Shown: positions 5,974-45,809 of the stretch, piece after piece | Layout: each line of letters opens with the position of its first letter | How positions within the stretch are numbered: position 1 is the stretch's first letter | DNA from: Psychrobacter sp. ANT_WB68 | Lineage (GTDB): Bacteria > Pseudomonadota > Gammaproteobacteria > Pseudomonadales > Moraxellaceae | NCBI RefSeq assembly: GCF_008369115.1 | Contig: NZ_VOAZ01000003.1 | Coordinates: 124,001-188,000, forward strand | Reading direction: 5' to 3' | Length of the DNA: 64,000 nt | Notes under the pieces: generated by a model | The model's database searches: none | What the model was told of the DNA's origin: nothing | Seen by the model: only the letters and a program-made list of their open reading frames with translations | Position numbers and translations under genes: made by a program

Positions 5974-6006
5974 AAAAAAGGGAGAGCGTTAGCTCTCCCT
6001 TTTTTA
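5974..6006. terminator. Bidirectional terminator between yheS and the RlpA-like gene
   Basis: The stem 5974-5987 pairs with 5992-6005 (AAAAAAGGGAGAGC with its complement) around a GTTA loop. The A run on one side and T run on the other make it usable from both strands. The converging genes end at 5919 and 6012. Confidence 0.92.
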
Positions 6007-6011
6007 TTACA

Positions 6012-6374
6012 TTATTCCATACGGTATTTACCATCACCATAAGATAGTATTTTCATGGTGGTTGTACAAAGTTCGCAGTTTATTTGACCAGCAGCGGCTT
6101 TCGATAAATCCAAAATACGACCTTTAATAAAAGGTCCTCTATCGGTAATATTTACGATCACGCTCTGCTTTGTCTTTTTGTTAGTCACTTGTACCTTCGT
6201 ACCAAACGGCAGCGTTTTATGTGCGGCGGTTAGAGAGTTCATATTGAAGATACTGCCACTTGCGGTACGTTTGCCGTGGAACTTACTACCATAGTAACTG
6301 GTGTTGCCGGCAAAAACAGTGGTACTTAACAGTAGCGATAAAGTGATGACTAAAGACTTGATGAAATAAGACAT
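6012..6374 (-). CDS. RlpA-like double-psi beta-barrel lipoprotein-family protein (short)
   Basis: Exported 120-residue protein. A signal peptide (basic start, LVITLSLLLSTTVFA, probable cleavage after residue 22) leads to a double-psi beta-barrel domain: SYYGSKFHGKRTASG, then NSLTAAHKTLPFGTKVQVTN, then ITDRGPF and GRILDLSKAAA. These are the RlpA hallmarks, including the conserved His and Asp. RlpA proteins cleave naked septal glycan. This one lacks both a lipobox cysteine and the SPOR domain, so septal targeting is not shown. The mature protein also has a Cys pair (INCELCTT). The function beyond the fold is inferred. Confidence 0.85.
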   Translation of the reverse strand: MSYFIKSLVITLSLLLSTTVFAGNTSYYGSKFHGKRTASGSIFNMNSLTAAHKTLPFGTKVQVTNKKTKQSVIVNITDRGPFIKGRILDLSKAAAGQINCELCTTTMKILSYGDGKYRME

Positions 6375-6833
6375 GTAATACCTTTTTTCTATTGATGAGA
6401 TAGACAGATACGCTTGCCTATGTTATCCATACTCCCTGTGAGTACAAATAGTAAAAGTATTTTACAAGAAGTAACTTGTCATATTATTACCGGTCTGTAA
6501 AAGAACTCTTAAGGTCAAAACAGTACTTTTTAGAGCCAAAAATCTATAAATTCATCACTTTTAAACAGCGATTATCTTATTTAATTTTCTTAACAATATC
6601 CCCATGATTACCTATATACATAGCTCTTATACTTAAGTTATTCGTGGTACGCTTATAGCTAGTCGTCATAACTGGTTATATTTATCTAACGCTATGGGTT
6701 TTTATTATTGTTATTATGGTTACTAGATGGTAACGACAATCTGTTATGTCGCCGTCAAATAAACTTCCTTATCATCTGGTTTACATTGGCATACCAGCCT
6801 TATAAATAGGCTTTTATTTTGAGGAACAACAAC
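6375..6833. other. Intergenic region between the RlpA-like gene and cbpA
   Basis: About 460 bp of AT-rich DNA with divergent promoters expected for both flanking genes. CCCCATGA near 6600 resembles a sigma-32 -10 element, but I found no matching -35, so no promoter is called. No repeats or small ORF are supportable. Confidence 0.45.
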
Positions 6834-7808
6834 ATGGCAGAAAAAAATTACTATGACATTTTAGGGGTCAAAAAAGACGCCACAGATGCTGAGATTAAAA
6901 AGAAATATCGTAAGCTTGTTCGTCAATATCACCCTGATGTGAGCGACGCTCCAGACGCTGATAATAAAATCGCAGAAATCAATAACGCTTATGAGACCCT
7001 CAGAGATAAAGATAAGCGTGCGGAATACGACGCCATGTTAAACAATCCCTTTGCTGGTCAAAGCGGTTTTGGTGGGCAATCGGCAGGCGCTGGACAGGGT
7101 GGCTTCCGCTGGGAAGATATTAAAGACCAATTTGGGGAGGGCGAAGCCTACGGCGATGGTGGCTTTCGCTTTGATGATATTTTTTCCGCCTTTGGGCGCG
7201 GTGCACGTGGCGGCTCAGCTAGTGGTCAGTCGCAATATGGCGGCTTTGGTAGCCAAGGTCAAGACCAACATGCAGAGATTACCGTTGATTTATCTTCGGT
7301 CTATAGTGGCGATGATTATAGTATTAAATTAAATGTTCCCGTTCGTCAGCCGAATGGCAGCGTCGATTACGAAAACAAAACCCTAAAAATTAAAATCCCT
7401 AAAGGCATCACTGACGGTAAACAAATTCGTCTAGCAGGGCAAGGTGCGGCGGGCGGCGGTAGAGGGAAAAACGGCGATTTATTTTTAAAGGTCAAAATCC
7501 GTCATGCGGATAATATCCGTATCGAAGGTGCTGATATCTATCAGACGGTCAATATTGCGCCATGGGAAGCGGCACTGGGCGAGAAGATTAACGTCAGCAC
7601 TCCAGCAGGGACGCTCGGCGTGACGATTCCTAAAAACAGCAAATCGGGTAGCAACTTACGTCTAAAAGGTAAAGGAATTCCTGCCAAACAGGCCGGCGAT
7701 TTGTACTTGACCCTAAATATTATCAACCCGAATATCAATAATGACCAGGCTGTTAAAGCTTACGAGGCGTTAAAACAAGCTTTTTCAGACATTAGTATTG
7801 AGCGCTAA
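6834..7808 (+). CDS. cbpA: DnaJ-family co-chaperone CbpA
   Basis: Co-chaperone that stimulates DnaK; in E. coli CbpA also binds curved DNA. The J domain spans about residues 1-70 with HPD at 33-35. A Gly/Phe/Gln-rich linker (about 75-145) follows, then the two C-terminal substrate-binding barrels (from AEITVDLSSVYSG). There is no zinc-finger region, so it is CbpA/DnaJB type rather than DnaJ. The start is ATG 6834 behind GAGGAA; the upstream in-frame TTG at 6819 lies before the ribosome site. The gene is followed by its modulator cbpM. Length 324 residues. Confidence 0.92.
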   Translation: MAEKNYYDILGVKKDATDAEIKKKYRKLVRQYHPDVSDAPDADNKIAEINNAYETLRDKDKRAEYDAMLNNPFAGQSGFGGQSAGAGQGGFRWEDIKDQFGEGEAYGDGGFRFDDIFSAFGRGARGGSASGQSQYGGFGSQGQDQHAEITVDLSSVYSGDDYSIKLNVPVRQPNGSVDYENKTLKIKIPKGITDGKQIRLAGQGAAGGGRGKNGDLFLKVKIRHADNIRIEGADIYQTVNIAPWEAALGEKINVSTPAGTLGVTIPKNSKSGSNLRLKGKGIPAKQAGDLYLTLNIINPNINNDQAVKAYEALKQAFSDISIER

Positions 7809-7900: not shown

Positions 7901-8224
7901 ATGAAACACTCGCCTGAATTTACCGACATTATCTTGAGCTTAGATGAGCTCGTATCTGCCTGTGGTCAAGAGCGCCAATGGGTCATCGAATTGATTGAAG
8001 AAAATATCATTGAATATGATGTGCCAGAGCGCCAGCAATTCACCGGCTATCAATTGACGACTGTACGCCGTGCCTCACGCCTTAGCCGCGACTTTGAAGC
8101 CAGTGTACCGGCGATTGGGTTGATACTTGAGCTATTAGATGAGATTGAGCAGCTGCGTCAATTTAAGCGTCAGCTAGAAATGCAGACCCCAGTGATTGAA
8201 GTAGAGGTCGATCATTTGAAATAA
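7901..8224 (+). CDS. cbpM: Chaperone modulator CbpM
   Basis: Small (107 residues) modulator that binds the J domain of CbpA and inhibits its co-chaperone and DNA-binding activities. The sequence has a MerR-like N-terminal helix-turn-helix region (LDELVSACGQERQWVIELIEENII) and a C-terminal coiled coil (LELLDEIEQLRQFKRQLEMQ). It lies 92 bp downstream of cbpA on the same strand, the usual arrangement, so the two are probably cotranscribed. The start ATG 7901 has AACGAGG upstream. Confidence 0.88.
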   Translation: MKHSPEFTDIILSLDELVSACGQERQWVIELIEENIIEYDVPERQQFTGYQLTTVRRASRLSRDFEASVPAIGLILELLDEIEQLRQFKRQLEMQTPVIEVEVDHLK

Positions 8225-8247
8225 CAAGTGACTCATTATTCAGCCCA

Positions 8248-8276
8248 TAAAAAAGGGTCTCTAAAGTGAGACCCTT
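8248..8276 (-). terminator. Terminator of sstT
   Basis: A 9-bp stem (8253-8261 with 8268-8276) and 6-nt loop are followed on the minus strand by a T run (complement of the A run from 8249). It lies 28 bp past the sstT stop. Confidence 0.87.
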
Positions 8277-8303
8277 AATGGTTTACAGATCATGCTTTAA
8301 CAA

Positions 8304-9506
8304 TTAGCGCGCATATTTTGGATCAGCAGCAGCGGTAAATAACACGTCTGTTGATGAGTTCAGTGCAGTTTCAGCTGAATCCTGTAATACACCGATGATA
8401 AAGCCAATGGCGACCACTTGCATGGCAATGTCGTTTGGAATACTAAATAGACTCGCCGCAAGGGGAATCAACAACAGTGACCCGCCAGCGACACCCGAGG
8501 CACCGCAAGCACTGATCGTTGCGACTAAACTTAATAGCAGCGCTGACGCAAACGTCACTTCAATACCGAGCGTATGTGCCGCAGCAAGGGTTAAGACGTT
8601 AATCGTAATCGCTGCGCCTGCCATATTAATGGTCGCACCCAGTGGAATGGTGACCGAATAAGTGTCTTCGTGTAGACCCAATTTGCGCGCAAGGTTCATA
8701 TTGACAGGAATATTAGCCGCCGAACTACGGGTAAAGAACGCCGTAATCCCTGACTCGCGTAAGCAAGTGAATACCAACGGATAAGGGTTTTTACGTGTCT
8801 TAACCAAGACAATCAGCGGGTTGACGACTAAAGCGATAAATAGCATACAACCGATCAATACCATCAAGATGCGGGCATAGCCTGCCAACGCAGCAAAACC
8901 TGTTTCAGCGACGGTATTGGCAACCAAGCCTAAAATACCAAAAGGTGCTAAAGCGATGACCCATTTGACCACTTGCGAGATAGCATTTGAAAAATCACTG
9001 ACCACGGTACGCGCGGTATCACTGGCTTGACGCAAGGCAAAACCAATAATGATGGCCCAGGCTAAAATACCAATATAATTGGCTTCAGCGATGGCATTAA
9101 CTGGGTTGGCAACCAAATTCATCAGCAAGTTGGTCAATACTTCTTTGAGGTTGGCAGGTGGTACTTGCTCAATGGTGGCATTGATCAATATCAGCTCTGT
9201 GGGGAATAAAGAGCTGGCGGCAACTGCCGTTAGCGCTGCCAAAAAGGTGCCGAACATATACATAATCAGCACAGGTTTGACATACACTTCATTGCCGCTA
9301 CGGTGTTGGCTAATGGCTGCCATGACCAAAATAAATACCAATATCGGCGCGACAGCTTTTAAAGCACCGACAAATAGCGTCCCTAATAGTCCTAAGGCAA
9401 TACCGATATTTGGTGCCATCCAGCCAATCAAAACTCCCAGTATTAAACCAATAATAATGAGCGGTACCAAACCTATACGCTGGTACATCGCAATCAATGA
9501 ACGCAT
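8304..9506 (-). CDS. sstT: Sodium/serine-threonine symporter SstT
   Basis: Inner-membrane transporter of the dicarboxylate/amino acid:cation symporter (DAACS, glutamate transporter) fold, importing serine and threonine with sodium. It has 400 residues with about eight hydrophobic helices and two re-entrant segments. The SSAANIPVN motif (re-entrant loop 1), ATINMAGAA (broken helix 7) and a [13 protein letters not shown] stretch are visible. The start is ATG 9506 preceded by GAGGGT. It has its own terminator and no operon partners. Confidence 0.92.
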
Positions 9507-15837: not shown

Positions 15838-16446
15838 TTAGTCTTTCGTCGCCATCGTAATAGTGTAAGTTTTCCCTTGTTTGACTTTTTCACTATTGCC
15901 AAACACTTCGGTAAATGAGCGTTTCATAAATTGGCGTAAACCATTAATGGTGACCACATAAAAACGCCCACCTTTACGCATGCGCGCATAGGCATCGAGA
16001 AAATATAGGTAATGCTGCTCTTTGCCTACTTTGGCTGGCAAGTTTGACATCACAAGGCTAAAGTCTTTATCTTTTGCTACATGATTAAAGCCGTTTGATA
16101 AATGTACATCGACATTTTTTAGACCGTTTTTCTCACAATTAAGGCGCGCATATTCCACCGCCATAAAGTCTTTATCAATCAAGGTATGCAGACCATTCGG
16201 ACATTCACGCGCCGCCGTCATACCGAGCACGCCATAACCACAGCCCAAATCTATAGAATCATCATCCGCTTGAAAATCTACATAATCAAGCAGCATCAAG
16301 CTGCCATCATCGAGCTTTTGCGGTGAAAAAATGCCCCACGTGGTCGCAAAATCAAACGGCTTGCCCAACACATCTTGGCGAAAATTAATATCTTCACGCC
16401 AGTGTTCAGCGCTTTTTAACAGGTCAGCAGGTGGTCTATGGCTCAT
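15838..16446 (-). CDS. RsmC-like class I SAM methyltransferase with NLPA in place of NPPF
   Basis: Cytosolic methyltransferase of the RsmC/RlmG small-domain type (MTS superfamily), which in RsmC methylates the 2-amino group of 16S rRNA G1207. The 202-residue protein is only the catalytic half: TTWGIFSPQKLDDGS, then the SAM motif DLGCGYGVLG (about 66-75). The catalytic loop reads SNLPAKVGK (residues 134-142), where rRNA guanine-N2 methyltransferases have NPPF/Y. The C-terminal GRFYVVTINGLRQF matches the family. The altered loop makes the substrate uncertain. It converges on lptG. Confidence 0.82.
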   Translation of the reverse strand: MSHRPPADLLKSAEHWREDINFRQDVLGKPFDFATTWGIFSPQKLDDGSLMLLDYVDFQADDDSIDLGCGYGVLGMTAARECPNGLHTLIDKDFMAVEYARLNCEKNGLKNVDVHLSNGFNHVAKDKDFSLVMSNLPAKVGKEQHYLYFLDAYARMRKGGRFYVVTINGLRQFMKRSFTEVFGNSEKVKQGKTYTITMATKD

Positions 16447-16682
16447 GGAATTCTCGGATTATTTAATAAATAGAAGGTTAATACATTATGGCAGGTATTG
16501 TAACGAGAAAAGGGCAGGTTTGCAGCATCCTATGGTGAGAATTGTAGCAAGGGTTGAAGAAAAGTAAGGTATACCTTCCGTCTCTTAATCAAAATAATAC
16601 TTAGCATTGGTGCGCAAGGCGAACTCTACATATACTTTGTAGTGTAAGATTAGTTTATAACGATATAGCCTATGAGATCATT

Positions 16683-17939
16683 ATGAATACGACAGAAAAA
16701 GGTGATAAGTTTGAAGACAAAGTGCTGACACTTCTCATGAAGGAAATAGAGGATTTTAATACTTTCATAAACCCTAAAAATCATATAAAAGTTTTTAAAA
16801 AGAAAAAGTATTTTTCAAGATTTAGGAAAAGCGATATAGAGTTTGATATTGCTATTGAGGTATATCAGGATGAAATAATTCCAAACTATTCGTTTCTAAT
16901 ACTGATTGAGTGTAAGGACTATAAAGGAGCAGTTGGTGTTGACCAAGTTAATAAGTTTTTACAAGATGTAAGAGATCTAAGTGAGGGTAATTTTAGCCAT
17001 AGTTTGAAGCCTATAATGGCAATTAGCTCTAGCTTAGCAAAATCAGCATTTAATATAGCATCAGAGAGAAATGTAGGACTCATCAAAATAAACGAAAGCG
17101 ATGGGCTGAAATGGGTATTAAATAGAAGCTTTAAAAAATATGGTATCAATCAAGCTCTTAGTTCAGAGGGCGTATTTGTGGATAGCGATCAACCAAACTA
17201 CTATAATTCTAGTTGGTTCTTTTATTCTCATAATAAATGGTTTAGTAGTCTGAAGGAATACCTAAGATACATCACTGGACAGAAAGACGAAATTACTAAG
17301 TCTCAAGTAAAATATTTTTCTAAAGATACTTTGGAAGATATGGCTAAAGACATACTTATAAAAATTGCGTATTTAGACGGTGCTGTTTGCTTATCTGACT
17401 TACTATCTTACGAGGTATTAAGTAGCGTAAAGTTATATCAAAACGTTATTCCATCTGCACATGAGAAGAGTCTACTCGGCAAAGTTGATTTTAAAAGTAA
17501 TGAAATTTTTATGTACAAAAAAGAAATTGATGACGAAAAAAGAGATAGGTTCACTCTTGCACATGAAATTTCACATATCCTACTAGGGCACAGTCAATAT
17601 CTGGATAAAGATTCACTTGAAGAGAGCGACTTAGATAATCTAGAAATTTTAGACAACTCTATGGTTGCAAAGCTTGAATTTCAAGCAAATTACTTAGCAA
17701 GCTGTTTGTTGGTTCCTAATGACCAATTAGCAAAAGAATTCTCCAAGATATATTCTAATTCAGGATTAAAACGAAGAGGTGTGTTCTGGATCTATTTAGA
17801 TAACCAGCCCGAAAACAAAATGATAGCGAATAATATTGTTAGTAAGCTAGCTCGTTACTTTGATGTTTCAAAAAGTGTTATTAGAATTAGATTAATAGGT
17901 TTTGGTTTACTTCATGACGAGAGATCGGAAATACTTTAA
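16683..17939 (+). CDS. Mrr-like nuclease domain fused to an ImmA/IrrE metallopeptidase
   Basis: Accessory gene of 418 codons, clearly more AT-rich than its neighbours. Residues about 5-150 resemble the Mrr-type PD-(D/E)XK restriction endonuclease fold: E11, D51/D55 (DIEFDIAIEV), E76-C-K78 (LILIECKDYKG), then a helix and FNIASERNVGLIKI. Residues about 215-390 are an ImmA/IrrE-type zinc peptidase: HEISH at 294-298 with a third-ligand Glu332 in LEFQANYLASCLLVP. ImmA/IrrE peptidases cut repressors (phage ImmR, Deinococcus DdrO). No HTH partner is adjacent. The start is ATG 16683 with GAGATC upstream. Domain calls are from motifs; the cellular role (defence or stress response) is inference. Confidence 0.8.
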   Translation: MNTTEKGDKFEDKVLTLLMKEIEDFNTFINPKNHIKVFKKKKYFSRFRKSDIEFDIAIEVYQDEIIPNYSFLILIECKDYKGAVGVDQVNKFLQDVRDLSEGNFSHSLKPIMAISSSLAKSAFNIASERNVGLIKINESDGLKWVLNRSFKKYGINQALSSEGVFVDSDQPNYYNSSWFFYSHNKWFSSLKEYLRYITGQKDEITKSQVKYFSKDTLEDMAKDILIKIAYLDGAVCLSDLLSYEVLSSVKLYQNVIPSAHEKSLLGKVDFKSNEIFMYKKEIDDEKRDRFTLAHEISHILLGHSQYLDKDSLEESDLDNLEILDNSMVAKLEFQANYLASCLLVPNDQLAKEFSKIYSNSGLKRRGVFWIYLDNQPENKMIANNIVSKLARYFDVSKSVIRIRLIGFGLLHDERSEIL

Positions 17940-17986
17940 CCTCTTAGATGATGCACTGCATGCAGCTTCTGTAATCTTGTCGTCGT
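17936..17986 (-). pseudogene. Remnant duplicate of the 3' end of xerD (17 codons)
   Basis: On the minus strand this 51-bp stretch aligns without gaps to the last 17 codons of the intact xerD (18427-18477): 40 of 51 bases agree. Read in frame it gives TTTRLQKLHAVHHLRG-stop against ATARLQKLHAEHHPRG-stop, with several synonymous changes. Its stop overlaps the stop of the fusion gene. Similarity ends abruptly at about 17987. It looks like a tail from a diverged xerD allele, left by recombination or element integration. Confidence 0.75.
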
Positions 17987-18043
17987 TAATAAATCCCTAT
18001 CCTTAAAAGTCTAAGCGCAACCGATACCGAAAAGCTTTTAATC

Positions 18044-18382
18044 CTATTTTCTCAAACTCTTCTTTAATAAATGATCAAATATAAACGGACCAAACGGTAA
18101 AAACGAGCCAAGCACACCTGCAGGCATTGCCCACAGTGGCATTTTTATCTTGCTGGTTGCAATCAACAGCATCAAAATATAGGCGATAAACAATGCCCCA
18201 TGCGCCATACCGATACATTTCACTGCCTCAGGAATACCCATCATATATTTTAGTGGCATGGCGATACCAAGTAATAATAAAAAAGAAGTGCCTTCTAGGT
18301 AACCCATCATGGTCAGGTTTTTGAGTGCAGAATTTTGCCCTTTTGTTAGGGTAGGCAGAGTAGATGGCTGAGCTTGCAACAC
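18044..18382 (-). CDS. DUF3817 family membrane protein
   Basis: Small inner-membrane protein, 112 residues, with three or four hydrophobic segments (GYLEGTSFLLLLGIAMPLKY, HGALFIAYILMLLIA, MPAGVLGSFLPFGPFIFD). The LEG...MPLKY...AVKCIGMAHGALF pattern is typical of DUF3817 proteins, whose function is not known. It lies between the xerD tail remnant and the intact xerD, on the same strand as xerD and 44 bp beyond its stop. The start ATG 18382 has AAAGGAA upstream. Confidence 0.8.
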   Translation of the reverse strand: MLQAQPSTLPTLTKGQNSALKNLTMMGYLEGTSFLLLLGIAMPLKYMMGIPEAVKCIGMAHGALFIAYILMLLIATSKIKMPLWAMPAGVLGSFLPFGPFIFDHLLKKSLRK

Positions 18383-18426
18383 GTTTTATTCCTTTTACAA
18401 TCATCAATAAATAGTCAGTTTTAACT

Positions 18427-19365
18427 TTAACCGCGCGGATGATGCTCGGCATGCAACTTCTGCAATCTCGCCGTCGCCACATGGGTATAAATCTGCGTGG
18501 TCGATAAATCACTATGCCCAAGTAATAATTGCACGCTACGCAAGTCTGCACCATGATTGAGCAAATGGGTGGCGAAAGCATGACGTAAGGTATGTGGCGA
18601 TAGCTCTTTATCAATACTGGCGACTTTGGCGTATTTCTTCAATAGATACCAAAAGTTCTGCCGCGTCATATAACCACCTTGCGCGGTCAAAAACACTGCT
18701 TGGCAATTGCCTGATTTCAAATGCGCAATCAAATCACCACGAGCATGCGTTAAATAATCTTCCAGCGCATCTGCTGCATATTCGCCCAATGGTACCAGTC
18801 GAGTTTTATTCCCTTTACCCGTAATTTGTAGCCAACCAGAGTTTAGATTGACTTGCTCTAGCGATAGATTGATTAGCTCGCTAACCCGCAGACCACAGGC
18901 ATAGAGCACCTCTAACATGGCTTTATCACGCAGACCGAGCGCCGTGCTGCTGTCAGGTGCGGCAAGTAGGTTATCGATATCCGCCTCGCTCAAATCCTTT
19001 GGCAATGGACGGCCCAATTTGGGACTTTTGATCCGCTCGCACGGATTGTCTTCACGTAAATTACTAGCAATCATCCATAGATAAAACTGACGCAAGCTTG
19101 AGAGCATCCGTGCTTGCGTACGCGGCGTTTTGCTTTCCTGAGTAAGGGTTGATAGACAGTGCAGTACGTCTTCAGGCTGCCATTTCGTCAGCGCAATAGG
19201 ATTGGTCAGCTCGCAAGAGCGCAAGTCACGCACATAAGCATTACGCGTCCGCGTTGCAAGACCACGAGCGAGCATCGCTTGGCGAAATTCCGTGATATAA
19301 GCTGGTTCGTCATCAACCGCCAGCGCTTTTGGTTGGCGCTGTTGCACAGCACGGTCGCGGCTCAT
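18427..19365 (-). CDS. xerD: Site-specific tyrosine recombinase XerD
   Basis: Recombinase that with XerC resolves chromosome dimers at dif under FtsK control. It has 312 residues with an N-terminal SAM-like core-binding domain (about 25-110) and a catalytic domain. Visible active-site elements are Arg in YACGLRVSEL, the beta-hairpin Lys (GKGNKTR), HTLRHAFATHLL (HxxR), and GHSDLSTTQIYTHV with the second His and the nucleophile Tyr. The N-terminus is about 15 residues longer than in E. coli. Its last 17 codons are duplicated at 17936-17986. XerD rather than XerC is my reading of the overall sequence. Confidence 0.88.
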   Translation of the reverse strand: MSRDRAVQQRQPKALAVDDEPAYITEFRQAMLARGLATRTRNAYVRDLRSCELTNPIALTKWQPEDVLHCLSTLTQESKTPRTQARMLSSLRQFYLWMIASNLREDNPCERIKSPKLGRPLPKDLSEADIDNLLAAPDSSTALGLRDKAMLEVLYACGLRVSELINLSLEQVNLNSGWLQITGKGNKTRLVPLGEYAADALEDYLTHARGDLIAHLKSGNCQAVFLTAQGGYMTRQNFWYLLKKYAKVASIDKELSPHTLRHAFATHLLNHGADLRSVQLLLGHSDLSTTQIYTHVATARLQKLHAEHHPRG

Positions 19366-40985: not shown

Positions 40986-41077
40986 TAAAAGTCTTTAAAT
41001 GAGTTTCAGCTTACATAAATGAAACTAGGTAAAACTTACTAAGAGTTTACACTAATCACATATCATCACATTTTATT

Positions 41078-41111
41078 GCAGGTTTCACCTATAGTGAAAC
41101 CTGCTTTTTTT
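41078..41111 (+). terminator. Terminator of the rimP-truB block
   Basis: An 11-bp perfect stem (41078-41088 with 41094-41104), 5-nt loop and T run. It lies 92 bp beyond the truB stop. The rest of the 355-bp gap to the next gene (to 41340) is very AT-rich with nothing else supportable. Confidence 0.93.
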
Positions 41112-41340
41112 GTATCTTAGTTAAGTCAGCTAGGGAAAGCACGACAAGGATATAAAAATAAGAAAATAAAATGCGAGTCAATTAAGCAGCCAAAGATATA
41201 ACTATAAAAATGAGCTATTTAAATAAAAATAAAAAGATATTAATTAATATAAAGATAATGTTTGAGTTTTAACGTGAAGATAATAATGAAAATATAGTTA
41301 TAAAACAACGAAGTTAATAAATTAAAGTATAAGGATTACC

Positions 41341-41865
41341 ATGAAGACCATTGCTTTCTTAGTACACAATAACTTTGAACAGGCAGAGTATGAAGAGGTC
41401 AATAACCAGCTAAAAGGCAAAGGTTATAAGACGCTTCTTATTACGACCGATAAAGAAAAACAAGTGCAAGCTATGCAGCAAGACGTTGATAAAGGCGATA
41501 CTTTTACTGCCGATTTATTTGCTAAAGACGCAAAAATTACTGATTATGATGCGTTAGTACTGCCCGGTGGTACCGTAAATGCCGATAGCATACGTGGCAA
41601 TAAAGAAGCGCATAGTATTATCAATGCTGTTAATGAGGCCGGTAAGCCAATGGCTGTTATTTGCCACGCCCCTTGGGCATTGATAAATACTGGCATAGCT
41701 AAAGGTAAAACCCTGACTGCGTATCATACATTACAGATTGATTTAGAAAATGCTGGGGCAACCTTTGTAGATAAAAGCGTGCAAATAGACGGTAATCTGA
41801 TTACCTCGCGTAATCCAGATGATATCGAAGACTTTGTTGCAGCCATTGATAAGGCGCTATCCTAG
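41341..41865 (+). CDS. DJ-1/PfpI family protein (YhbO-like)
   Basis: Class I glutamine amidotransferase-like protein, 174 residues. The PfpI/YhbO subfamily has been linked to stress resistance and to repair of glyoxal-type damage, though the latter is disputed. The nucleophile Cys is in MAVICHAPWALINTG (about residue 104), with His following as usual. Early Glu in NNFEQAEYEEV and the ALVLPGGTVNADSIR loop match the family. The start is ATG 41341 with AAGGATT upstream. Two very small genes follow, suggesting a small stress operon. Confidence 0.88.
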   Translation: MKTIAFLVHNNFEQAEYEEVNNQLKGKGYKTLLITTDKEKQVQAMQQDVDKGDTFTADLFAKDAKITDYDALVLPGGTVNADSIRGNKEAHSIINAVNEAGKPMAVICHAPWALINTGIAKGKTLTAYHTLQIDLENAGATFVDKSVQIDGNLITSRNPDDIEDFVAAIDKALS

Positions 41866-41949
41866 GCGCGACATTGAACCACCAGTATTGAATAATATAT
41901 ATCTGGTTTAATTTCTATTACTAATGACAACCATAAAAAGGAAGCTATT

Positions 41950-42111
41950 ATGTCAAACTCGAATCCAAATGATACAAAGCTTGAGCAAGAGCGTTCTGAA
42001 TCAGCGAAAGCTGCGTTAAAAGGTCAAACTGAAAATAATCATACTGAGAATACCGAAGCAGCAGCTGACCGTATTGCTGATAATTTAAAAAACACTAAAG
42101 AAGATAAATAG
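41950..42111 (+). CDS. Small hydrophilic protein (53 aa), unknown
   Basis: Short frame ATG to TAG encoding 53 residues, starting MSNSNPNDTKLEQERSES and ending ADRIADNLKNTKEDK. It is rich in Glu, Asn, Lys and Ala, with no cysteine or hydrophobic segment, and probably disordered or helical. A ribosome site AAAGGAAG lies seven bases upstream. It is 84 bp after the DJ-1 gene and precedes another tiny acidic gene. I do not recognise a family; the good ribosome site and biased composition support it as real. Confidence 0.6.
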   Translation: MSNSNPNDTKLEQERSESAKAALKGQTENNHTENTEAAADRIADNLKNTKEDK

Positions 42112-42176
42112 TTAATTTTTAATGATATATGATTAGTAAGAGCAAAATTATTCAGTAATTATAATTAGGAGTTATT

Positions 42177-42350
42177 ATGACTGATTCAGTAAAGCACATG
42201 GATGAACAAGAACAAAAAATTAAAGAACAGGCAGAAGACATCAATCCTAACGAAGATATTAGCCCTGATAGCTTAGCAGAGATAACGACTGCGCCGCTTA
42301 ATGATGACGCCCTTGGTGGCACTGCCACGCAAGATGACGTCAAAAAATAA
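42177..42350 (+). CDS. Small acidic protein (57 aa), unknown
   Basis: Short frame encoding 57 residues, starting MTDSVKHMDEQEQKIKEQ and ending GTATQDDVKK. It is strongly acidic (many Asp and Glu), with no cysteine, aromatic residue or membrane segment. TTAGGAG stands six bases before the ATG, a strong ribosome site. A terminator follows at 42421. It appears to form a unit with the preceding small gene. Function unknown. Confidence 0.62.
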   Translation: MTDSVKHMDEQEQKIKEQAEDINPNEDISPDSLAEITTAPLNDDALGGTATQDDVKK

Positions 42351-42713
42351 ATGATTATACGTTCAATATTATCACTGCTAGTCATTAAATTTTTTCAAAT
42401 TAGACTGTAAAACTACTAAAAACTGCTGCTAGTTCAGCGGTTTTTTGCTATAATCGCTGTCATATTTGAATATCGTTTTAGATTGGGTGTTATCCTTACT
42501 TGGGTGAAAGTCTAAGTTAACGGATGTTTTATCTTATTCTAGGCTATTTTTGGATAAACGTTATTATTGATAAGTTTGTCGTACACTAGGTCAACTCTAG
42601 TAATGCAGGGTTGTTCTGAATGACGATTAAACTATTTTATTTATTATTCTATCGTTCCTTGATGCTTAAATGTTAAGTACATCTCGGAACTTATAGCATT
42701 GCCGGAGAGATTT
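42351..42713. other. Intergenic region upstream of rpsO
   Basis: A 363-bp stretch with the small-gene terminator and then an extended -10 motif TGCTATAAT at 42446-42454 that could start the rpsO transcript. The implied leader is about 250 nt. S15 autoregulates through leader structure in E. coli; I cannot show the fold here. Confidence 0.4.
42421..42446 (+). terminator. Terminator of the DJ-1/small-gene cluster
   Basis: An 8-bp stem (42421-42428 with 42435-42442, one G-U pair), 6-nt loop and six T. It lies 70 bp after the last small gene. Confidence 0.75.
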
Positions 42714-42980
42714 ATGCTAACTAATACCGATCGTGAACAAATCATTGCCCAGTACCAACGTGGCGAAAACGACACAGGCTCACCAGAAGTTCAAGTAGCT
42801 TTGTTAAGTGCTCGTATTAATGACTTACAAAACCATTTTAAAGAGCATAAAGCTGACCATCATAGCCGTCGCGGTCTTATCCGTATGGTTAACACGCGTC
42901 GTAAACTACTTGACTACCTAAAAGGTAAAGATCTTGGTCGCTATACCACCCTTATTAGCCAATTAGGTCTACGTCGTTAA
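42714..42980 (+). CDS. rpsO: 30S ribosomal protein S15
   Basis: Primary-binding 30S protein of the central domain. The start is ATG 42714 behind GGAGAG, giving 88 residues, the family length. The sequence is the familiar four-helix S15: FTLNTD-type start ([11 protein letters not shown]), [45 protein letters not shown]. It is followed by its terminator and then pnp, the conserved rpsO-pnp pair. Confidence 0.97.
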
Positions 42981-43105
42981 TTTGGCGACAATAGTACGAG
43001 TGGTCGCTAAATTAGAATGTAGCTTAAAGTGGCAGCATTTTAGATTTTTTGCTAAACCATTTGGAACTTGCTTGTTGAACTTGATAAAATAGATTTTTTC
43101 TAAAG

Positions 43106-43136
43106 ACGGTGTGGAATAGTTTCACGCCGTTTTTTT
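43106..43136 (+). terminator. Terminator of rpsO
   Basis: An 11-bp stem (43106-43116 with 43120-43130, two G-U pairs) with a tight loop and seven T. It lies 126 bp after rpsO and before pnp. Confidence 0.82.
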
Positions 43137-43649
43137 ATGCTTATTAGTATGGTTCATTTGATTTTAATACTAAAATCTCATGCCATACGATAATTGAATT
43201 ATAGACAATTATTTGTTCGCATCTATAAAGTGGAAGTGATCAATAAGCAGATGGTTTTGTATTTCATTGGTCAATCGTCATAAATCACTGTAAAATAATG
43301 CCTTGTGAGTTTTAGAGTCATACTGGCGCTCGAGCGAATATTGATATAGCTTACCCTTATGTGATGACTGTCTAGATAGCATAGACGAATAATGTAAATA
43401 CCTTACTAAAGAAAATAAGGAAGCAGCGTCATGTTGGGTTTTAACGTATTTTGACTTGGCCGCGCCTTTAATAGTAAGCATAGAAAACCAGATTTGAATA
43501 AGAAAACATATCATAAGTACACGCTATATTTTAAATAAATGCAGATGCATCGGATAAGTAGATGTTGAAGCCAGCGCTAATTGACGCAGTTTTTTAACTG
43601 AATTAATGTCAGTAAGTGGTGGCTACATCTAAAGAATTTTAAATGACAA

Positions 43650-43675
43650 ATATCAGCTTTTTATAGTGCTGATAT
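43650..43675 (+). promoter_or_regulatory. Hairpin in the pnp leader
   Basis: ATATCAGC (43650-43657) pairs with GCTGATAT (43668-43675) around a 10-nt loop, 31 bases before the pnp ATG. In E. coli a leader hairpin is cut by RNase III as part of pnp autocontrol; equivalence here is only suggested by position. Confidence 0.5.
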
Positions 43676-43706
43676 CACTTTCGTCAGTCAATATTAGGAA
43701 AATTAT

Positions 43707-45809
43707 ATGACAATGTTTAATACCGTTAAGCGTGAATTCCAATACGGTGACCAGCAGGTTGTTATCGAGACGGGCCGTATCGCTCGTCAAGCAAACTCTA
43801 TTTTAGTCCATATGGGCGGCGTGACTGTATTAGTAGCAGCCGTGGTAAAGTCTGATGCTAAAGAAGGGCAAAACTTCTTTCCATTGACCGTGAACTATCA
43901 AGAAAAAATGTATGCAGCGGGTAAAATCCCAGGTGCTTATGGCAAACGTGAAGGCCGTGCAAGCGAAGCTGAAACCTTAACCTCGCGTCTGATTGACCGT
44001 CCTATTCGTCCACTATTCCCTGAAGGATATGTGAACGAAATTCAAATCACGGCAACGGTTGTGTCATCAGATAAGAGCCAATCTGCAGATATCGCTGCGC
44101 TAATCGGTGCTTCAGCAGCACTAGCTATCTCTGATGCGCCATTTAATGGCCCTGTGGCTGCTGCTCGTGTTGGCTTTATCAATGGTGAATACGTTCTTAA
44201 CCCAACGCTTGAGCAGCTCAAAGAGAGCGACCTTGACTTAGTGGTTGCTGGTACCAAATCTGCCGTTTTGATGGTTGAGTCAGAAGCGAAAGAATTGTCT
44301 GAAGACCAAATGCTAGGTGCGGTTTTATACGGTCATCAGCAGCAGCAAATCGTTATCGATAATATCGCGTCAATGGCAGCAGAAATCGGTACTGCTAAGC
44401 AGCAATATACGCCGCCTGTCCGCGATCAAGCGTTAGAAACTAGCATGAAAGCGCAGTTTGGCGAGCAAGTTGCTGATGCTTATACCATCACGGATAAGCA
44501 AGAGCGTTATACCAAGCTTGATGAAATCAAACAAGCGATTATTGATTCATTGGCGGGTGACCCGGAAGCAGAAACCTATAATGATACTGTTTCTGAGCTA
44601 AAAGAAATCTATAATGACCTAAAATACCGTACCGTTCGTGACAATATCTTGTCAGGTAAGCCACGTATTGATGGTCGTGATCTTGAGACCGTTCGTGCTC
44701 TAGATGTACAAGTAGGCGTATTACCATTCACTCATGGTTCAGCATTGTTTACCCGTGGTGAGACACAAGCATTGGTTACCACCACACTTGGTAACACGCG
44801 TGATGTAAACATGATTGATTCATTGGCTGGTACGATTCGTGACCATTTCATGTTGCATTATAACTTCCCGCATTTCTCAGTCGGTGAAACCGGTCGTGAA
44901 GGCATTCCAAAACGCCGTGAAATCGGTCATGGTCGCTTAGCGCGCCGCGGTGTTGAAGCGATGCTTCCAGATAGCGAACGCTTCCCGTATGTGATTCGTG
45001 TGGTATCAGAAATCACTGAATCAAATGGTTCATCTTCTATGGCGTCGGTTTGTGGTGCAAGTTTGGCATTGATGGACGCTGGCGTTCCATTAAAAGCACC
45101 AGTTGCTGGTATCGCGATGGGTCTGGTTAAAGAAGGCGAGCGCTTTGCTGTATTGTCTGATATCCTAGGTGATGAAGATCATCTTGGCGATATGGACTTT
45201 AAAGTAGCGGGTTCAAAAGACGGTATCACTGCTTTACAGATGGATATCAAAATCGAAGGTATTACCGCCGATATCATGGAGCAAGCGCTTAAGCAAGCCC
45301 ATGCAGGTCGTATCCACATCTTAGAGGCGATGAACAAAGTATTGCCTTCAAGCCGTACTGAAATCAACGCCCATGCTCCTAACTATGCCGTTATCGAAAT
45401 CAACCCTGATAAAATTCGTGATGTGATTGGTAAAGGTGGCGCAACGATTCGTCAGCTAACGGAAGAAACTGGCGCGGTTATCGATATTGATGATGCCGGT
45501 ACGATTCGTATCTTTGGTGAAAACAAAGCAGCAACCAAAGCAGCTATCGGTAAAATCGAAGCAATCACCGCAGAAGTGGAAGTGGGTAAAACTTATGAAG
45601 GTACGGTTGCTCGTATCGTTGACTTCGGCGCATTCATTAACGTATTGCCAAACACTGACGGCCTCGTCCATATCTCACAAATTGCAGACGAGCGCGTAGA
45701 GAATGTATCTGACTATCTAAAAGAGGGTCAAATCGTTAAAGTATTGGTTCAAGACGTTGATAATCGTGGTCGTATCAAGCTGACTATGAAAGGTATCGAG
45801 CAAAGCTAA
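43707..45809 (+). CDS. pnp: Polyribonucleotide nucleotidyltransferase (PNPase)
   Basis: Trimeric 3'-5' phosphorolytic exoribonuclease and degradosome component. It has 700 residues: a first RNase PH domain (from [20 protein letters not shown]), a helical linker, a second RNase PH domain with [15 protein letters not shown] and [19 protein letters not shown] (catalytic Asp), then KH ([21 protein letters not shown], about 560) and S1 ([19 protein letters not shown], about 630). The start is ATG 43707 or 43713 behind AGGAAAA. Confidence 0.97.

Follow-up and report, generated by a model that had tools for sequence, protein, structure and literature searches.

The gene at positions 16683 to 17939 of the window, by which we mean the whole 64,000-nucleotide stretch of Psychrobacter DNA analysed here, encodes a single polypeptide on which the structural model shows a nuclease fold together with a zinc-peptidase fold of the CapP/PprI type. 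With somewhat less than even confidence, we propose that this fusion gene forms a mobile one-gene conflict system that needs no partner, directed most probably against phages (which would include the defence of a prophage against competing phages), in which the peptidase would be the switch and the nuclease the effector. The parts of the gene referred to below are the following:

16683 to 17939, forward strand: fusion gene, nuclease domain plus zinc-peptidase domain, 418 aa (ORF, Pfam, structure model)
16683 to 17099, forward strand: N-terminal PD-(D/E)XK (Mrr/Can2-like) domain, residues 1-139 (conservation; folds AF1548, Cdn1, Can2, EndoMS, SgrAI)
16713 to 16715, 16845 to 16847 and 16908 to 16916, forward strand: nuclease residues E11, D55 and E76-x-K78, respectively (conservation)
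17100 to 17306, forward strand: inter-domain linker, residues 140-208 (pLDDT; dN by region)
17307 to 17936, forward strand: C-terminal ImmA/IrrE (CapP/PprI-type) zinc-peptidase domain and following helices, residues 209-418 (Pfam, conservation, fold Z 14.7 to CapP)
17562 to 17576 and 17676 to 17678, forward strand: zinc-peptidase motif, HEISH (294-298) and E332, respectively (conservation)
17793 to 17816, forward strand: conserved Y-x-D-x-Q-x2-N segment, residues 371-378 (conservation; gapped in peptidase-only rows)

In the ORF list of the window the gene starts with an ATG at 16683 and ends with a stop codon at 17937-17939, and it is present as one copy in its own genome. Its GC content is 0.319, against 0.433 for the whole window; of the 42 ORFs that reach 150 aa and do not overlap, none is lower and the second-lowest has 0.401, in line with the out-of-step base composition noted in the initial annotation. 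Other low-GC stretches (0.35-0.37) of the window lie at 41001-44000 and 6001-7000. Scans for a promoter and a terminator of the fusion gene returned nothing exceeding shuffles. Pfam Peptidase_M78 was matched by residues 273-404 (E 2.5e-13, 50.3 bits, cut-off 22) and Mrr_cat by residues 68-136, the latter below threshold (19.3 bits, cut-off 21, E 0.0013). Within the fusion family, Peptidase_M78 was matched by all 15 relatives and Mrr_cat by 13 of 15 members (best E 2e-8, values up to 0.1 being accepted). The ORF, Pfam and the predicted folds agree on what had been claimed from the letters of the gene, an Mrr-like nuclease and an ImmA/IrrE peptidase in one reading frame.

Conservation was read from an alignment of 15 full-length or near-full-length relatives, in which E76, C77 and K78 are invariant, and E11 and D55 are conserved at 90% or more, the region being missing from one row at a contig edge. 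D51, previously placed in the nuclease active site, is not conserved among the 15 relatives and was dropped as a catalytic residue; because of this, D55 is likely to be the catalytic aspartate. An AlphaFold2 model of the fusion protein, built from a 45-sequence alignment that included proviral and single-domain relatives, has a mean pLDDT of 83.5, and its segments below 50 all fall within residues 140-173. The elements of its N-terminal half follow the order helix-strand-strand-strand-helix-strand, as in PD-(D/E)XK enzymes, with D55 borne by the second strand of the core and E76 and K78 by the third. The predicted catalytic set E11, D55, E76 and K78 is found on the alpha-beta-beta-beta-alpha-beta core that characterizes PD-(D/E)XK enzymes; the core proposed for residues 5-150 is present in the model, and the E11, D55, E76-x-K78 pattern is conserved. 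In structure comparison (Foldseek was also run) this half matched AF1548 (Z 11.3), Cdn1 (11.1), Can2 (10.8), EndoMS (9.4) and SgrAI (8.6), and the presence of the defence nucleases Cdn1, Can2 and Card1 among the matches argues for the one-gene conflict reading. The nuclease half is also encountered alone in one relative (L113:3199-3864, reverse strand), which lies near a contig end and whose C-terminus may be truncated. A related Mrr-like N-terminal domain is carried by a separate group of proteins of about 290 aa from phage contigs (L204, L207-L214) that have no peptidase domain.

In the C-terminal half, H294, E295, H298, E332, Q334, A335, N336, D373, Q375, N378 and R403 are also invariant in the 15 relatives, and the initial annotation was thus right in recognizing a zinc-peptidase pattern in HEISH 294-298 and Glu332. 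Both an HExxH motif with a downstream glutamate and a Peptidase_M78 score over the cut-off, as found in ImmA/IrrE enzymes, are present, and the model of this half matched CapP with a Z of 14.7 and IrrE/PprI with a Z of 11-12. The Y-x-D-x-Q-x2-N segment may be a mark of the fusion family, since nearly all displayed peptidase-only rows of the alignment are gapped at it. According to the structure alignment, the C-terminus of the window protein aligns to IrrE residue 206, before the GAF-like domain of PprI would start, and a C-terminal GAF-like domain of the PprI/IrrE type is hence absent. As read from the sequence alignments, the predicted active sites of both halves are conserved across two phyla.

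The comparison of alleles within Psychrobacter points in the same direction for both halves. Between its alleles dN is far lower than dS in each half, for instance 0.039 against 0.521 (codons 1-150) and 0.087 against 0.397 (codons 215 to the end) for the window gene and L012; both halves are thus evidently under purifying selection in this genus, the nuclease half having the lowest dN. The conservation of both catalytic sets in the 15 relatives, together with this selection, argues for the one-gene conflict reading. In addition, the C-terminal halves of L012 and L014 are near-identical (dS 0.016) and their codons 20-156 are diverged, with 98 of 411 positions differing and an equally extreme segment in 0 of 1000 shuffles, which indicates that the nuclease half has been exchanged as a block between these alleles. 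The exchange of one part as a block is a common pattern in conflict genes, and its occurrence here likewise speaks for the proposed role.

We hypothesize that the peptidase half would serve as the switch and the nuclease half as the blade. Contact of the fusion protein with DNA of the phage or with intermediates of replication would activate the peptidase, as single-stranded DNA is reported to activate PprI and CapP (PMC10904395), and the peptidase would cleave either the fusion protein between its halves or a bound partner. The nuclease, released or reoriented, would attack DNA, with the result that the phage is restricted or the infected cell killed. A coupling of both activities is favoured by the fact that both active sites have been kept, and the genes recovered in a selection for phage defence, of which many come from prophages, include some with ImmA/IrrE and some with Mrr domains (PMC9519451). 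Two features of the protein count against the switch-and-blade reading. The linker is the least conserved part of the protein, as judged from dN by region among Psychrobacter alleles, so that no fixed self-cleavage motif is visible in it; this disfavours a single such motif and leaves the suggestion that an effector is set free by self-cleavage unsupported as far as a specific site is concerned. The second feature is the absence from the model of the GAF-like domain, which PprI requires for sensing single-stranded DNA (PMC10904395). The latter would also suit a reversed polarity: DNA that is foreign or damaged would be sensed by another part of the protein, the nuclease-fold half, and the metallopeptidase would be the effector, cutting an essential protein of the host or the phage in a Lit-like abortive infection. 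We regard this arrangement as unlikely. Lit, a zincin that cuts EF-Tu in phage-infected cells (PMC3506569), offers a precedent for it, and the invariance of the peptidase active site speaks for it; nevertheless, the nuclease catalytic residues are as strictly conserved as those of the peptidase and dN is lowest in their half, neither of which a pure DNA-binding sensor would require.

Relatives were sought by tblastn and profile searches, and full-length ones turned up in Moraxellaceae, in other Pseudomonadota, on the Bacteroidota plasmid and on the proviral contigs described below. Within Psychrobacter the gene occurs in 8 of 105 species, the window and broken copies being counted, and in wider samples in 4 of 321 (class) and 7 of 398 (phylum), each count including the window genome. 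Other Moraxellaceae carriers are four genomes of another genus and one A. baumannii record; further carriers are found among other Gammaproteobacteria and other Pseudomonadota, and in Bacteroidota on a Spirosoma plasmid. Two records, NZ_CP104448.1 (labelled as a plasmid, 4.09 Mb) and CAKLQH020000007.1 (labelled as a phage), both appear to be Acinetobacter chromosomal sequence. The searches of viral contigs gave no match with the window protein alone, with A1 or with one Acinetobacter member as query; the searches with A3 and with the N-domain alignment retrieved proviral members on six IMG/VR contigs (L116, L117, L118, L200, L201 and L202). Judging by their translated ORFs, the provirus of L116 looks P2-like (integrase, gpA-type replication protein), that of L118 looks Mu-like (transposase A and B-like genes), and L201 and L202 look like T7-like temperate podoviruses (primase-helicase, DNA polymerase, connector); the records of L116, L201 and L202 match an integrase profile. 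In L201 and L202 the gene (8001-9290) is located between those for the DNA polymerase and the connector, with a GC content of 0.50 in a genome of 0.59. Broken copies are common: G293 and G521 are frameshifted, G042 has a stop codon and a contig break, and in G099 a contig breaks off within the gene. A costly, dispensable gene would be expected to look like this, but two of these cases could be due to gaps in the assembly. A split two-gene form considered for G521 was rejected, as its two ORFs lie in different frames of a single gene and overlap, and it was read as a frameshifted copy.

The locus in which the Psychrobacter copies reside is described by these features:

15838 to 16446, reverse strand: methyltransferase gene (RsmC-like), conserved left flank (Pfam)
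16620 to 17938, no strand: inserted cargo, approximate extent, with its left edge between 16620 and 16636 (alignment with the non-carrier L027 and the carriers L012 and L013)
17933 to 18003, no strand: degraded copy of the xerD 3' end, the scar (direct repeat; beyond 17985 by eye)
18044 to 18382, reverse strand: DUF3817 gene, whose presence varies between genomes at the site (Pfam; locus comparison)
18427 to 19365, reverse strand: xerC/xerD-type tyrosine recombinase gene, named by its family, conserved right flank (ORF; flank comparison)

All mapped Psychrobacter copies lie between the methyltransferase gene, which is present in 103 of the 105 genomes of the genus, and xerD. Contig ends interrupt the gene in G042 and G099, and of the two contigs concerned in each genome one bears the methyltransferase flank. 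The fusion gene adjoins xerD with no DUF3817 gene between them in L012, L014 and L017, and a second allele class of 47% identity (L016, L017) occupies the same site, with methyltransferase and xerD-type flanks 94-97% identical to those of the window. When the interval was compared in 60 further locus extracts, including those of the broken-copy genomes G099 and G042, it proved almost empty in some loci (258-288 bp in L049 and L051) and elsewhere filled with many unrelated, mostly unnamed AT-rich cargo genes (loci L022-L079), among them those for a protein with HD-CE and HATPase domains (L076), for one of the pretoxin-HINT type (L050) and for a SEC-C protein (L042, L047). The recombination scar reported next to the gene is real, as 17933-17985 forms with the xerD 3' end at 18424-18476 a direct repeat of 81% over 53 nt (0 expected by chance). 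A xerD-like scar is also found in the carrier L013 and in the non-carrier L023, the latter with other cargo, and for this reason it belongs to a recombination-prone site and does not mark the arrival of the fusion gene, a role for which it was dropped. The gene moves alone, as cargo of a chromosomal hotspot, of plasmids and of several unrelated prophage types; its homologues are thus found in variable or mobile loci, and the possibility that they would be confined to core, non-variable ones did not hold. Such a distribution weighs against the very improbable reading that the protein is a DNA-repair enzyme, for instance for DNA-protein crosslinks or mismatches, instead of a conflict gene. The match of the nuclease fold to the repair nuclease EndoMS/NucS and that of the peptidase to PprI, a DNA-damage regulator, would agree with repair, and a protease-nuclease pair would suit DNA-protein crosslinks; yet the gene is patchily distributed at every level sampled, is replaced at the same site by unrelated cargo, is carried by proviruses and is frequently broken.

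In the loci of the relatives, no constant partner gene recurs beside the family, apart from what is shared at the common Psychrobacter site and at a common Acinetobacter site. Neither in the window nor in the relatives read does an XRE-type repressor gene adjoin the fusion gene, except in the provirus L118 (7502-9766), in whose lysogeny region the gene is flanked by an HTH repressor-like gene and by the stop-bearing C-terminal half of an S24-type repressor. This copy, and the precedent of the ImmA/IrrE family, would be in keeping with a regulator of the carrier element, namely an anti-repressor like ImmA, which would cleave a repressor of the phage or the host upon DNA damage, the nuclease half helping it to bind DNA. 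We consider this improbable, given that the repressor gene is missing from the window and the other relatives read, whereas two peptidase-only ImmA/IrrE matches (L090, L091) have an XRE gene alongside, and that most copies lie outside any recognizable element. Membership of a CBASS-CapP system was likewise dropped, as ORF and Pfam reading recognized no CapH repressor or CD-NTase gene beside the window gene or its relatives. Returning to the one-gene conflict reading, known or candidate defence genes are found near some members: AriA/AriB (PARIS) 5.6 kb downstream in the A. baumannii record, and the PADLOC candidate families PDC-S73 immediately upstream in Spirosoma and PDC-M04A adjoining the gene in the provirus L117. 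These neighbours argue for that reading, as do the lack of a recurrent partner, the hotspot with other cargo and the carriage by six proviral contigs of different kinds. The fact that the majority of neighbours are ordinary housekeeping genes counts against it. On the whole, a single-gene defence role would fit with the absence of a constant partner, proviral carriage and some defence-gene neighbours. In one genome of the Acinetobacter group (L104:4399-8250, forward strand), an AT-rich gene for a 1283-aa protein with a weak PADLOC match lies directly upstream of the fusion gene.

Neither the two domains nor single-gene defence fusions as a theme are new. No description of the nuclease-ImmA/IrrE combination was found in the open-access literature searched, although an earlier mention elsewhere is possible, and no match in PADLOC-DB 2.0, NCBIfam or PHROGs covers the nuclease half or the fusion, those of the window protein being on the peptidase half. 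It is conceivable, if doubtful, that these proteins constitute a hitherto undescribed family of independent defence proteins with two enzymes each, in which an ImmA/IrrE peptidase would directly control a covalently attached PD-(D/E)XK nuclease, activating it by proteolysis within one polypeptide, and that prophages, plasmids and chromosomal hotspots have spread this family through two or more phyla. At 1.3 kb and with no partner, the gene is a compact candidate of which PADLOC 2.0, NCBIfam and PHROGs describe the peptidase half only, and the methyltransferase-xerD interval is a Psychrobacter hotspot whose other cargo is mostly unnamed. Among known systems, CapP, the CBASS-associated ImmA/IrrE peptidase (PDB 7t5t), shares the zinc-peptidase fold (Z 14.7), gives the best PADLOC match (4e-15) and has a comparable link to defence and DNA damage, but the fusion gene has no adjoining CapH repressor or CBASS operon and adds an N-terminal nuclease domain. 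Similarly, Deinococcus IrrE/PprI (PDB 3dti, 8sln) has in common the HEISH zinc-peptidase motif and the following helices (Z about 12), whereas the fusion protein model ends before the GAF-like domain, has a nuclease half and is encoded with no adjoining DdrO-type repressor. The HTH-IrrE fusions of the RmrA and spr1629 type also join a C-terminal IrrE peptidase to an N-terminal DNA-acting domain, which is an HTH in them and a nuclease fold here. Two systems described by Vassallo et al. 2022 (PMC9519451) each share one half: a fusion of an N-terminal Mrr nuclease with an unrelated second domain, obtained in a selection for phage defence, in which that domain is a seven-bladed beta-propeller and not a peptidase, and PD-lambda-2, a phage-defence system of three genes whose ImmA/IrrE peptidase is fused to an Xre HTH and not to a nuclease. 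The CRISPR ancillary nucleases Cdn1, Can2 and Card1 have the same nuclease domain fold (Z about 8-11) but are controlled through a CARF domain with cyclic oligoadenylate as its ligand, the attached domain here being a peptidase. ImmA/IrrE peptidases have so far been seen chiefly as switches acting by cleavage of a separate repressor, and a conserved peptidase-nuclease fusion that travels alone and has an intact nuclease active site would allow a direct test of whether a DNA-damage-sensing peptidase can control an immune effector within one protein.
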